Source: Deltaproteobacteria bacterium
Lineage (GTDB): Bacteria > JAEEML01
Direction of reading: 5' to 3'
Assembly: GCA_016283195.1 (NCBI GenBank)
Contig: JAEEML010000021.1
Span: forward strand, 1 to 35,777
Length of the DNA: 35,777 nucleotides
A program made the position numbers and the translations under genes. Below are positions 12,124 to 15,779 of this stretch, in pieces. The notes beneath the pieces were generated by a model, which saw nothing but the letters and a program-made list of their open reading frames with translations, was not told the origin of the DNA and searched no databases. Every line of letters starts with the position of its first letter. Within the stretch, counting starts at the first letter, position 1.

Positions 12124-13395
12124 CTATGGTGTTTTTACCATAGATTTCTTTTTCTCCTTCTTCTCCCAGGGAGCGCTATCTCCGGCTTTAAAATTGTAAA
12201 TCGGTTTGATAATCTTGATAACCTCGGCGGTCGGCTCGATATTTTGCAAAATGCTCTCCAGCGGTTTATAGGCCATGGGCGCTTCGTCGATGGTTTCCAG
12301 GCCGATGGTCGAAGAATAAATTCCCGCCATTTCCTTTTGAAAATCATCTAGTTTTAATTCTCTTGCCGCCTGTGCCCGGCTCATGATACGCCCGGCGCCG
12401 TGGGGCGCTGAATAGTTCCAATCGGGGTTGCCCTTGCCCAGGCAGATGAGGCTGCCGTCGCGCATGTTGATGGGAATTAAGAGTTTTTCGCCTTTTTGGG
12501 CGCTTACTGCCCCTTTGCGCAAGATCATGGCTTTGGTATCAATATAATTATGAATGGTGGTAAATTGCTCCAAAATATCTTTTGGGGCAATATTCATGCC
12601 GGTGCAAATGGCTTCGATCATGGCCCGGCGGCTAAGGACGGCAAAATGCTGCATGATGCGCATGTCGCTAATATAATTATCAAATAGCTGCCCGCTCACA
12701 TAGGCCAGCTCGCGGGGAATTTTGGTAAGCACCTGGTTTTTCAGCCTTTTGAGCTCGCTTTCTATCTCTTTATCGCGCCCGGCGGCTTTGAGAGTGGCGA
12801 TTAAAGAAGCTCTATCGCTTTTTAAATTGCCGTTTAGCTGTTTCCAAGCCTCTTCCTGGTAAAAGCCGGCTATTTCCAGCCCGGCATGGCGGCTGCCGGA
12901 GTGCACCACAAAATAGAGATTGCCCTCATCGTCGCGGTCGGCTTCGATAAAGTGGTTGCCGCCGCCCAGAGTGCCCAGGCTGAGTTGGGCCCGCGCCTTG
13001 TTATAGTGGCCGCGGATATTATCCCACTCCACCGCGCTGGCTAGCGGGTGCGGGGTTTCTCTAATGGCAAACCCGGCGGGAATATTGGCTTTTATAACTT
13101 CATCCAGCTTCTTAGGGTCAAAATTCTGGCTTGCCGGAGCGGCGGCGTGAATGGCTATGGTCTCCATACCACACCCTATATCCACGCCCACCAAATTGGG
13201 GCAAATTTTGCCCTCTATGGTCATGGTGGTGCCGATAGTGCAGCCGGCTCCGGCATGAATATCAGGCATGAGGCGTATCTTGCTGCTTTCTACAAATGGT
13301 TGATCGCAAAGAGTTTTTACCTGTTTTAACGAAGTGTCGTCAACGAGGTCGGTATAAATTTTGGCACAGGCATAGCGGCCGCTGATTTCTTTCAT
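12124..13395 (-). CDS. rtcB: RtcB-type RNA ligase (3'-phosphate/5'-OH)
   Basis: GTP- and Mn2+-dependent ligase that joins 2',3'-cyclic or 3'-phosphate RNA ends to 5'-OH ends, as in tRNA repair after cleavage. Family marks are clear: GVDIGCGM with the metal-binding Asp72 and Cys75, SLGTLGGGNHFIE, VHSGSRHAG, and SAPHGAGR with His332, which carries the GMP. At 423 aa it belongs to the shorter RtcB forms. I start it at the ATG at 13395 because GGGGA lies 7 nt upstream and family proteins begin near here; the ATG at 13428 abuts a terminator T-run and has no ribosome binding site. The C-terminus is Lys-rich (KKEKKKK). No rtcA, archease, rsr or rtcR gene is seen. A sigma54 promoter, structured RNA and terminator lie upstream. 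Confidence 0.93.
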   Translation of the reverse strand: MKEISGRYACAKIYTDLVDDTSLKQVKTLCDQPFVESSKIRLMPDIHAGAGCTIGTTMTIEGKICPNLVGVDIGCGMETIAIHAAAPASQNFDPKKLDEVIKANIPAGFAIRETPHPLASAVEWDNIRGHYNKARAQLSLGTLGGGNHFIEADRDDEGNLYFVVHSGSRHAGLEIAGFYQEEAWKQLNGNLKSDRASLIATLKAAGRDKEIESELKRLKNQVLTKIPRELAYVSGQLFDNYISDMRIMQHFAVLSRRAMIEAICTGMNIAPKDILEQFTTIHNYIDTKAMILRKGAVSAQKGEKLLIPINMRDGSLICLGKGNPDWNYSAPHGAGRIMSRAQAARELKLDDFQKEMAGIYSSTIGLETIDEAPMAYKPLESILQNIEPTAEVIKIIKPIYNFKAGDSAPWEKKEKKKSMVKTP

Positions 13396-13428
13396 TGCAG
13401 ATTCCCCGGTCTTTGTAGATAAAGGCAT

Positions 13429-13455
13429 AAAAAAAGCCCGCTAAATTAGCGGGCT
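13429..13455 (-). terminator. Strong intrinsic terminator between the structured RNA and rtcB
   Basis: On the minus strand AGCCCGCTAATTTAGCGGGCT (13455-13435) folds into a hairpin of up to 9 bp and is followed by six T (13434-13429). It ends 33 bp before the rtcB ATG. It either ends a separate small RNA or acts as an attenuator that rtcB transcription must pass. Confidence 0.85.
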
Positions 13456-13725
13456 AAATTTTATATAAAATCTTGCGAAAAGCAAGACAGAAAAAACAGG
13501 GGGTAGGACTTGGAGTCCAAGGTTGCGGCATTTGCGCCGGGGAGATGTGAACAATACCCCACTCACAACCTTGGACTCCTAAGACAATAACCAATATAAA
13601 TATTGGTTATAAAATGATATGTCTATTGAAGGTAGGTCAGGTAAAATTTTTTTAAAAGATCCAACACAAAACTCTATTGAGAACCGTGCCAGCTCATTTC
13701 CAAGTCAGGCGCTCATGCGCAACGC
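13429..13725 (-). ncRNA. Hairpin-rich non-coding RNA or leader upstream of rtcB
   Basis: Predicted from the sigma54 promoter (start near 13725) to the terminator, about 297 nt with no convincing open frame. On the minus strand, in order: a perfect 10-bp hairpin (13610-13587, loop TTTA); a 14-bp perfect stem GGAGTCCAAGGTTG/CAACCTTGGACTCC (13579-13566 with 13525-13512), extended by CTT/AAG past one bulge; inside it a 40-nt insert holding CGGC-loop-GCCG (13539-13526) and GGGG/CCCC, giving a three-way junction; a hairpin TCTTGC-TTTTC-GCAAGA (13487-13471); then the terminator. The layout fits either a Y-RNA-like small RNA, as known next to rtcB in some bacteria, or a cis-acting leader. I see no match to 6S, SRP, tmRNA, RNase P or tRNA. 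Boundaries are inferred. Confidence 0.65.
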
Positions 13726-13732
13726 CCTTATA

Positions 13733-13756
13733 ATATGCAAGTTCCGTGCCAACTTT
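13733..13756 (-). promoter_or_regulatory. Full-consensus sigma54 (-24/-12) promoter facing rtcB
   Basis: The minus strand reads AAAGTTGGCACGGAACTTGC followed by ATAT, which matches every position of the consensus mrNrYTGGCACGN4TTGCWNNw. Transcription should start about 12 nt after the -12 GC, near 13725, and run into the structured RNA and rtcB. A second site, CTGGCACGGTTCTCAA (13692-13677), has a perfect -24 half but a spoiled -12 half. Sigma54 promoters need an AAA+ activator; in enterobacteria rtcBA uses RtcR. Confidence 0.85.
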
Positions 13757-13846
13757 TTGATACAAAGTATTGTTGAATTAAATCAATCAGTTACAGAAAT
13801 GCACCATTTTGTAAAAACTCTATGCATTACCAGTAATAGGGTAAAA

Positions 13847-13875
13847 TTACCACACGAAGCCACTACTTGTGGTAA
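13847..13875. promoter_or_regulatory. Dyad at enhancer distance from the sigma54 promoter
   Basis: TTACCACA (13847-13854) and TGTGGTAA (13868-13875) are perfect inverted arms whose centres are 21 bp apart, two helical turns. The centre lies about 125 bp upstream of the -12 element, a usual place for a bacterial enhancer-binding protein. Proposed binding site for an RtcR-like activator. Confidence 0.5.
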
Positions 13876-13887
13876 AATAGCCATAAA

Positions 13888-14904
13888 TTAACCCTTGTTG
13901 CCTCTTATAGCGGTCTGATAAGTTGCCGCTTGCCGGCAACGGGGCTGATAGGGGACATCGATCCCGCCGCCCATTTTCAGATTGAGTCCGAGACAAGGAG
14001 CACAAAACTGGCGCTTTTCACAGGAGTGGCAAGGAGTTGGCTTCTTCAATAATTCGCGGGCCTCTTGCATAACCGGGCCATTCCAGAGTTCTATAAAAGG
14101 CGCTTTGATTAATGATCCTGCAGCCTTAGGCCAGTTTATACAGGGCCAGAGCAGCGCCTCGGCATCAATAAAGGCGCTCATGGTGGCTGCACCGCAGAGT
14201 TCCGGGCCAATTTGCCTTTTGGCCATCCAGCCTATGAAAGAGGATTTTTGCCAATTTTCCCTATATTTCTCAATAGTTTTTAATGTTGGAACCTCAACTG
14301 GAGGTGCTTCCTTTAGGCGGTTTATAGGGTCCATAAAATAAATACCGGCACAGCTCGCGCCAACATCGCGGCATAATTGTTCGATCTCAGCTAATTCACT
14401 AATGTTTTCATCAAGGAGCATTACTTGCACTTTGCTCTTTATGCCATATTTGCGGAGCAATTTAAGAGCCATAGTGGTGGCGGCAAAGGCGCCTTTGTGG
14501 CCCACAAAGCGGTCATGTTTTTCCGCTGTGGCAAAGTAAAGGGAAGTGCGCACCAGGCGCACGCCGAGTTCTGCTAGAGCCGCAATTTGTTCTTCACTGG
14601 CCAAAGTCAGGTTGGAAATAAAGGTTACATCGAAATAGGCCTTTCGAGCATCACTAATGATATCAATGAGATCTGGATGAGTAAAGATTTCACCGCCGGT
14701 AAAAGTGAGCTCTAAAGTGCCGGCTTCTGCCAGCTGTGGCAAAATGTTTTGCCAGGTTTCGCGCGGCAGGCGCACGTTATCAAATTCTCCGTGATAGCAA
14801 TGGCGGCAGCGCAAATTGCAGCTTCTGATGAGCTCAATAGTAATTTTAAACGGGCGAGAGTTTTTTTGAGCTTTTTGCACCATTTCCTTAAAAATAGTGT
14901 TCAT
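13888..14904 (-). CDS. Radical SAM enzyme with SPASM domain
   Basis: Likely peptide- or protein-modifying radical SAM enzyme, 338 aa. C29-N-L-R-C33-R-H-C36 binds the radical SAM cluster, followed by the GGE motif (LTFTGGEIFTHPDL). The C-terminal part is a Cys-rich SPASM domain for auxiliary clusters: ELCGA, LWPCINW, then C-x2-C-x5-C-x2-C (TPCHSCEKRQFCAPC) and a last RCRQ. The start at 14904 makes an ATGA overlap with the kinase gene upstream, so the two are coupled. A longer frame to 15045 would lie inside that gene and is rejected. Relatives with HprK-like partners occur in RiPP maturation cassettes (for example SynChlorMet-type) and lack a fixed substrate. No PqqD-like domain is present. 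No clear precursor peptide is seen nearby. Confidence 0.88.
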   Translation of the reverse strand: MNTIFKEMVQKAQKNSRPFKITIELIRSCNLRCRHCYHGEFDNVRLPRETWQNILPQLAEAGTLELTFTGGEIFTHPDLIDIISDARKAYFDVTFISNLTLASEEQIAALAELGVRLVRTSLYFATAEKHDRFVGHKGAFAATTMALKLLRKYGIKSKVQVMLLDENISELAEIEQLCRDVGASCAGIYFMDPINRLKEAPPVEVPTLKTIEKYRENWQKSSFIGWMAKRQIGPELCGAATMSAFIDAEALLWPCINWPKAAGSLIKAPFIELWNGPVMQEARELLKKPTPCHSCEKRQFCAPCLGLNLKMGGGIDVPYQPRCRQAATYQTAIRGNKG

Positions 14905-15779
14905 AAAGTGCCCCGCAGAATTATCTCTTTGAGTGGCGCTTTTTGCTCCAAACCATTGCCAGTTAAGTAATAAGTGAGCTTTTTTATTGGATAATTTTCG
15001 GCTATGCGCCGCGATAGCGAGAGCATATCTTCGGCCTCTTGCCAAGCAATGCCCACACTATTTTCCAAAATAGCCTTCATCCTGGCGGCAACAGAAGGAA
15101 TGTCTGCCAGCGAATAAGGGCGGTGGCCATCTAAAAGATATATCTTTTCCAGCTGATAGCCATCAGGATAGCGCTCGATATAAGTTAGGTTATCGAGAAA
15201 AGTCGGCCAAATCATGAAGTTGCCCTCCGCAGTTTCCCCCAGCAAAGTTAAGTCGCCGGTTAAAGTATCGGGAGCAAAAAGTTCAGCTATGGTAGATTTA
15301 CCACGGCCAGACATCCCCATGAAAAGATAGCCTTTTTTATCAAAGCATAGGGCGGCTGAATGAATAAGCAGGCGCTTATAATGCGGAAGCCAGAGCATCA
15401 TCATCAGGCGTATTATATTGCAAATCGACATATAATAACCGGCACAGCGACCTTCGGCAAACTGCGGGTCGGCAATAGTAAAAAAGGCCAAGGGCTCTTT
15501 TAAGCTGTAATAGCCGTCGTAACTGCCGGAATGAAAGGCATAAATGCGATCTTCTAGGCGGTTAAAGCGCGGGATGCCGTGGTCGGTCATATATGGTTCG
15601 GCCACATGGCCCGGGGTAACAAAAATGCGGCAATGGGGCAGGGCGCCCTCTTTATGGCAGGCAAAATTATTATAACGCCTGCTGAAATCCTCTATTACCG
15701 CCTGGCTTTCGGAGCTGATTTGCCAAACTGTTTCGCCAAGAGTGCAAAAAAAGCTATATTCATTAGCCATTGTTGCCAA
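14901..15779 (-). CDS. HPr kinase-like P-loop protein
   Basis: Protein of 292 aa with a kinase core like HprK: Walker A GMSGRGKST (about residues 153-161) followed by an Asp-containing strand (LTGDLTLLGE), the place where HprK has its conserved Asp pair. It lacks the HprK N-terminal domain and instead has about 140 residues of mixed alpha/beta sequence. Such truncated HprK-like kinases are found with radical SAM peptide-modifying enzymes and PqqD proteins, where they may phosphorylate or present the peptide. It overlaps the radical SAM gene by 4 bp (ATGA) and follows the GH13 gene after 8 bp, so all three form one operon. Start: TTG at 15779 is nearer a weak GAGAAAG; the in-frame ATG at 15770 is equally possible and would shorten it by three residues. 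Confidence 0.78.
   Translation of the reverse strand: MATMANEYSFFCTLGETVWQISSESQAVIEDFSRRYNNFACHKEGALPHCRIFVTPGHVAEPYMTDHGIPRFNRLEDRIYAFHSGSYDGYYSLKEPLAFFTIADPQFAEGRCAGYYMSICNIIRLMMMLWLPHYKRLLIHSAALCFDKKGYLFMGMSGRGKSTIAELFAPDTLTGDLTLLGETAEGNFMIWPTFLDNLTYIERYPDGYQLEKIYLLDGHRPYSLADIPSVAARMKAILENSVGIAWQEAEDMLSLSRRIAENYPIKKLTYYLTGNGLEQKAPLKEIILRGTL

Follow-up and report, generated by a model that had tools for sequence, protein, structure and literature searches.

Between rtcB and its upstream neighbour, a sigma54 promoter, a hairpin-rich non-coding stretch and a terminator follow one another on the minus strand, and the question raised by this locus is what the RNA made there would be for. The sequence-only reading had seen in it a reduced RNA-repair module built around rtcB. 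We analyzed the locus within the window (the whole stretch of DNA under study, 35,777 nucleotides long) and against other loci and genomes. The most economical reading of the sequence appears to be that a structured non-coding RNA of ~300 nt is encoded upstream of rtcB by a sigma54-dependent, independently terminated gene of its own, and we hold this reading with moderate confidence.

The promoter and the sigma54 machinery of the genome

The -24/-12 element TGGCACGGAACTTGCA (13751-13736, minus strand) matches all fixed positions of TGGCACG-N4-TTGCA. It reads TGGCACG-GAAC-TTGCA and falls within 13756-13733, where a perfect sigma54 promoter had been claimed, and this claim was borne out. A simple scan of 13300-14000 for sigma70-type promoters gave none at the threshold. 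A second copy of TGGCACGG is found at 13685-13692, within the predicted transcript, and has no matching -12 element.

The dyad TTACCACA-N13-TGTGGTAA (13847-13875, minus strand), recognised by its sequence, lies ~100 bp upstream of the -24 element and is a candidate enhancer, that is, an activator-binding site. Its pattern has no second occurrence in the genome and a control pattern gave 1 match, which puts the dyad by itself at chance level and leaves its position as the suggestive feature. The dyad that had been reported at enhancer distance is thus indeed there, but its pattern is no rarer than chance allows. An alternative is that it weakly terminates transcription of the radical-SAM gene upstream, and this counts against the reading that we favour. 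TTACC...GGTAA (TTACCCTATTACTGGTAA, 13827-13844, minus strand) forms a second inverted pair and, from sequence only, a possible second activator site.

The sequence-only reading had made rpoN a check on the promoter; the gene is present in the genome, so the promoter is not undercut on that point. Seven full-length activators with a sigma54-interaction domain were identified (five response regulators, one FHA-GAF and one FHA protein). None of the seven carries an RtcR/CARF sensor domain, and the RtcR-type control that was sought genome-wide therefore found no candidate. Genome-wide, the strict pattern TGGCAC-N5-TTGC has 27 occurrences and its reversed-pattern control has 2. Eighteen of the 27 stand before genes or RNA and the other 9, which are probably there by chance, inside genes. 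Many sites precede genes of the kinds expected under sigma54 or in competence and pilus formation, among them two comEA-like HhH genes, comM, a type IV pilin and PDDEXK_2 transposases. The element upstream of rtcB is a perfect match, is intergenic and points the right way; taken with this genome-wide pattern and gene context, it very likely works as a promoter.

Arrays of TGACACAC-like repeats precede the sigma54 promoters at L132 2001+, L157 2480-, L143 2286-, L135 3015- and L146 2001+, and the genes behind them are the two comEA-like HhH genes, comM and PDDEXK_2 transposases. This looks like a regulon for competence and DNA uptake under sigma54 control, in which the activator site is repeated. 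The TGACACAC arrays of these competence-type promoters are missing from the promoter upstream of rtcB, which consequently probably answers to a different activator. Near-identical sigma54 promoters at L133 308- and L142 2001+ are followed by AGAGAG runs (~3 versus ~13 units) and paralogous lipoprotein-like genes, possibly with a repeat-length, phase-variation-like leader. At L134, L135, L144 and L148 the contig ends soon after the same sigma54 promoter and the start of a PDDEXK_2 transposase gene, which suggests that the assembly broke at the copies of a repeated family.

Structure and distribution of the predicted RNA

The predicted transcript is ~298 nt long (13726 to 13429, minus strand), its start being placed by the spacing from the -12 element and its end by the U-tract. 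The region 13429-13740 folds at -101.7 kcal/mol (z = -6.5) and no shuffle equals it. When the terminator is removed z is still -5.5, due to the 13579-13512 stem and an A/U hairpin, and the first 95 nt, at the 5' end, fold no more stably than shuffles (z = -0.8). Inverted repeats should fold alike on both strands, and the two strands indeed fold about equally; it is the promoter and the terminator's T-run that favour the minus strand as the one that would be transcribed into the RNA.

From its 5' end, the RNA is predicted to form a hairpin GGCGUU...AGCGCC (13726-13708), an imperfect hairpin that contains the second TGGCACGG (13692-13661), and a 10 bp A/U hairpin, AUAACCAAUA-UUUA-UAUUGGUUAU (13610-13587; z = -3.4 for the 49 nt around it). 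These are followed by a core stem (13579-13512; z = -5.4 for the 93 nt around it) in which a long helix of GGAGUCCAAGGUUG with CAACCUUGGACUCC closes two small hairpins. The linker CUACCCCCUGUUUUUUCU (13506-13489), C-rich then U-rich, is predicted to be single-stranded (mean unpaired probability 0.91) and is a possible pairing region. A first terminator-like hairpin, GUCUUGC-UUUUC-GCAAGAU followed by UUUAUAU (13488-13470), precedes the intrinsic terminator AGCCCGCUA-AUU-UAGCGGGCU with its U run (13455-13428, hairpin 13455-13435, -15.4 kcal/mol); all of these elements are on the minus strand. The strong terminator that had been noted before rtcB is thus confirmed, with a second terminator-like hairpin ahead of it.

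No coding frame of note was found on the minus strand of the RNA region, and a 90-codon plus-strand frame across it has no Pfam match, so that the description of the stretch as ~300 nt of hairpin-rich non-coding DNA holds (z about -6). Searches of the RNA against Rfam gave no family at the gathering score and ARAGORN detected no tRNA-like gene in the region. With relaxed Rfam searching, GcvB reached 38.9 bits (cut-off 42) and aligned poorly outside the terminator; it was rejected, as were the Trp leader and the other relaxed matches, most of which have just the terminator in common with the RNA.

The RNA stretch is single-copy in its own genome. To compare it elsewhere we used rtcB loci that come mostly from Clostridia and Treponema, all from phyla other than that of the source genome. 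No sigma54 promoter was found beside rtcB in the 41 homologous loci scanned; the best promoter-like site among them, TGGCGCAGGACTTGCA in Desulfosporosinus (L064), is 265 bp ahead of rtcB, lies inside an upstream open frame and was set aside as chance. A covariance model of the RNA core, which is weak because it was built from one sequence, found no homologue beside rtcB in 82 loci of other phyla and none in 20 further whole genomes, and matched just its own sequence and its reverse strand. The matches at L073 and L088 (E 0.28-8.5) are noise. BLAST of the RNA against 191 other genomes gave short A/T-rich matches in one genome only, and plasmids and phages gave short chance matches only. No conserved neighbour of rtcB was seen among the homologous loci. 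The expected conservation of the RNA and promoter upstream of rtcB was therefore not encountered in the homologues within reach (41 and 82 loci), a weak refutation as these belong to other phyla; the same holds for the covariance search that had been proposed, where a single-sequence model found the core in 0 of 82 such loci. As no homologue and hence no covariation was found, the structure is a predicted one, drawn from folding energies.

A second sigma54 RNA candidate was found in the same genome behind the promoter TGGCACGCTACTTGCA (L155 3015 minus, G000:C149). This RNA of ~125 nt (~2988-2860 minus, -45 kcal/mol) ends in an 11-12 bp terminator stem followed by U8, has no Rfam match and sits after a ribonucleotide-reductase-like gene, facing a convergent glycosyltransferase-like gene. 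Since no co-directional gene lies downstream of it, free-standing sigma54-driven RNAs seem to occur in this genome.

rtcB and the possible roles of the RNA

The downstream gene (12124-13395, minus strand) encodes a genuine RtcB, the RNA 3'-phosphate/5'-OH ligase, as judged by Pfam (PF01139, E = 2.6e-60). The longest frame given by the ORF finder starts at 13428, and the alignment of homologues and a GGGGA ribosome site ahead favour Met12 at 13395 as the likely start. The terminator lies ~33 nt ahead of this start codon on the same strand, in agreement with the 33 bp reported earlier. Alignment with homologues shows that Cys86, His159, His176, His293 and His343 are kept, which we take to be the metal- and guanylate-binding, catalytic residues. 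The upstream neighbour (13888-15045, minus strand, stop at 13888) is a radical SAM/SPASM gene. Within 13888-15779 the radical SAM/SPASM protein adjoins a protein weakly similar to HprK-related kinase B, possibly as a peptide-modification pair. Homologues of the rtcB gene in gut Clostridia and in MAGs of rumen Treponema share up to 70% identity with it. Because it resembles these while the best RpoN match in the sampled other genomes reaches 41% identity, rtcB may have been acquired by horizontal transfer, and if so an old partnership between the RNA and RtcB becomes less likely.

The sigma54 transcript could be meant for rtcB itself, with a long 5' leader and a terminator that attenuate in response to a ligand, a protein or RNA damage; we consider this unlikely. 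The terminator is close to the likely start codon of rtcB, which has no other recognised promoter, and GACUUGGA, UCCAAG and CUUGGA are repeated, so that alternative pairings exist. Against this, the terminators stand in tandem, an arrangement that suggests firm termination in the predicted fold. A terminator arm pairs with upstream RNA at ~-12 kcal/mol at best, versus -15.4 for the hairpin, and would also break the upstream fold in doing so; a longer competing stretch reaches -19.2 versus ~-23.4 kcal/mol for both hairpins. By these energies no anti-terminator is clearly able to outcompete the terminator, and they lend no support to the attenuation first proposed. No regulator-like leader accompanies rtcB elsewhere (41 loci scanned for the promoter and 82 for the RNA core, other phyla). 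Nor does the RNA stand out in its pairing to the start region of rtcB, where 83 of 200 shuffled sequences did as well.

The repair module of the sequence-only reading, in which RtcB would have the RNA as its substrate, its guide or a partner, in a role like that of the Y RNAs in rsr-yrlBA-rtcBA, is in our view quite improbable. The RNA adjoins rtcB, and the locus shares a sigma54 theme with enterobacterial rtcBA (PMC7790460). The active-site residues of RtcB look intact and rtcA is present in the genome. This rtcA is on contig C104, outside the rtcB locus, and no sigma54 site of this kind lies ahead of it, so that the module is "without RtcA" at the locus but not in the genome. Ro60/TROVE gave no match in the genome, in a search that was positive in the control Deinobacterium, which agrees with the claim that Ro60 is absent; it also leaves the module without that partner, and no Y RNA family of Rfam was matched even at E <= 10. 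RtcR is not among the seven activators, and the arrangement of promoter and RNA is absent from the other rtcB loci (41 for the promoter, 82 for the RNA core, other phyla). Of the proposal, the sigma54 promoter, the structured RNA, the terminator and the lack of Ro60 thus stand, whereas there is no RtcR, rtcA is in the genome and conservation was not found. It is similarly doubtful that the RNA founds a new sigma54-induced structured family that responds to a stress or signal other than that of RtcR and, where Ro60 is lacking, partners RtcB as its substrate, its scaffold or a regulator. If true, RNA-repair loci would be seen to recruit non-coding RNAs even in the absence of Ro60, and a route to the natural substrates of RtcB would open. 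Least of all do we expect that the RNA has no function and is a plain leader behind a sigma54 promoter, its inverted repeats being remnants or accidental. The single genome with no homologue found, a 5' third that folds like shuffles and the like folding of both strands would fit such a leader, but z stays about -5.5 even without the terminator, and a single-copy stretch is not a repeated element.

The reading of an independent sigma54-driven RNA gene draws on the promoter enrichment (27 versus 2), rpoN, the activators, a z of about -6, two terminator-like hairpins and the lack of a coding frame, as well as on the free-standing second sigma54 RNA candidate of this genome. Two further points speak against it: rtcB has no other recognised promoter, so that the leader could be meant to feed it, and a homologue of the RNA was found in none of the genomes searched. 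On this reading of an RNA gene, an NtrC-class activator, one of the seven of the genome and not RtcR, would bind near 13830-13875 and let the sigma54 polymerase start near 13726. The tandem hairpins ahead of rtcB would stop most transcripts, and a minority may read through to give a low, co-induced supply of rtcB. The RNA would most likely act in trans as an sRNA, through pairing of its C-rich linker or through protein binding. Precedents of sigma54-driven sRNAs are CrcZ/CrcY (PMC8657755) and GlmY (PMC7073468). As a plain sigma54 sRNA, the RNA would be an orphan in a phylum-level lineage sampled by this one genome, and a known class of sigma54-driven sRNA would extend to that lineage.

Comparison with known systems

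Like attenuated 5' leaders and riboswitches, the locus has a structured leader with an intrinsic terminator near a start codon; unlike them, it shows no convincing anti-terminator and no known riboswitch family. In RtcR-controlled rtcBA the RtcR gene usually adjoins rtcB. Here the neighbours of rtcB are the radical-SAM gene and others, with no RtcR gene alongside. As in E. coli rtcBA with RtcR, rtcB lies downstream of a sigma54 promoter, but RtcR is lacking and a long structured stretch with a terminator separates the promoter from rtcB. With the Salmonella rsr-yrlBA-rtcBA operon the locus shares a sigma54 promoter, a non-coding RNA and rtcB downstream; it differs in that no Ro60/TROVE was found, RtcR is absent, rtcA is on another contig, and the RNA fits no Y-RNA model and terminates ahead of rtcB. 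As judged from the genes present, the locus thus echoes rtcBA and rsr-yrlBA-rtcBA in theme but fails their defining features.

Several sRNAs depend on sigma54 and an activator, namely CrcZ/CrcY/CrcX (CbrB), GlmY (QseF/GlrR) and the Qrr RNAs (LuxO). Unlike these, the RNA described here is without an Rfam match at the gathering score and lies directly upstream of rtcB. Like them, it has a -24/-12 promoter, a response-regulator-type activator available in the genome, a predicted structured non-coding transcript and an intrinsic terminator.
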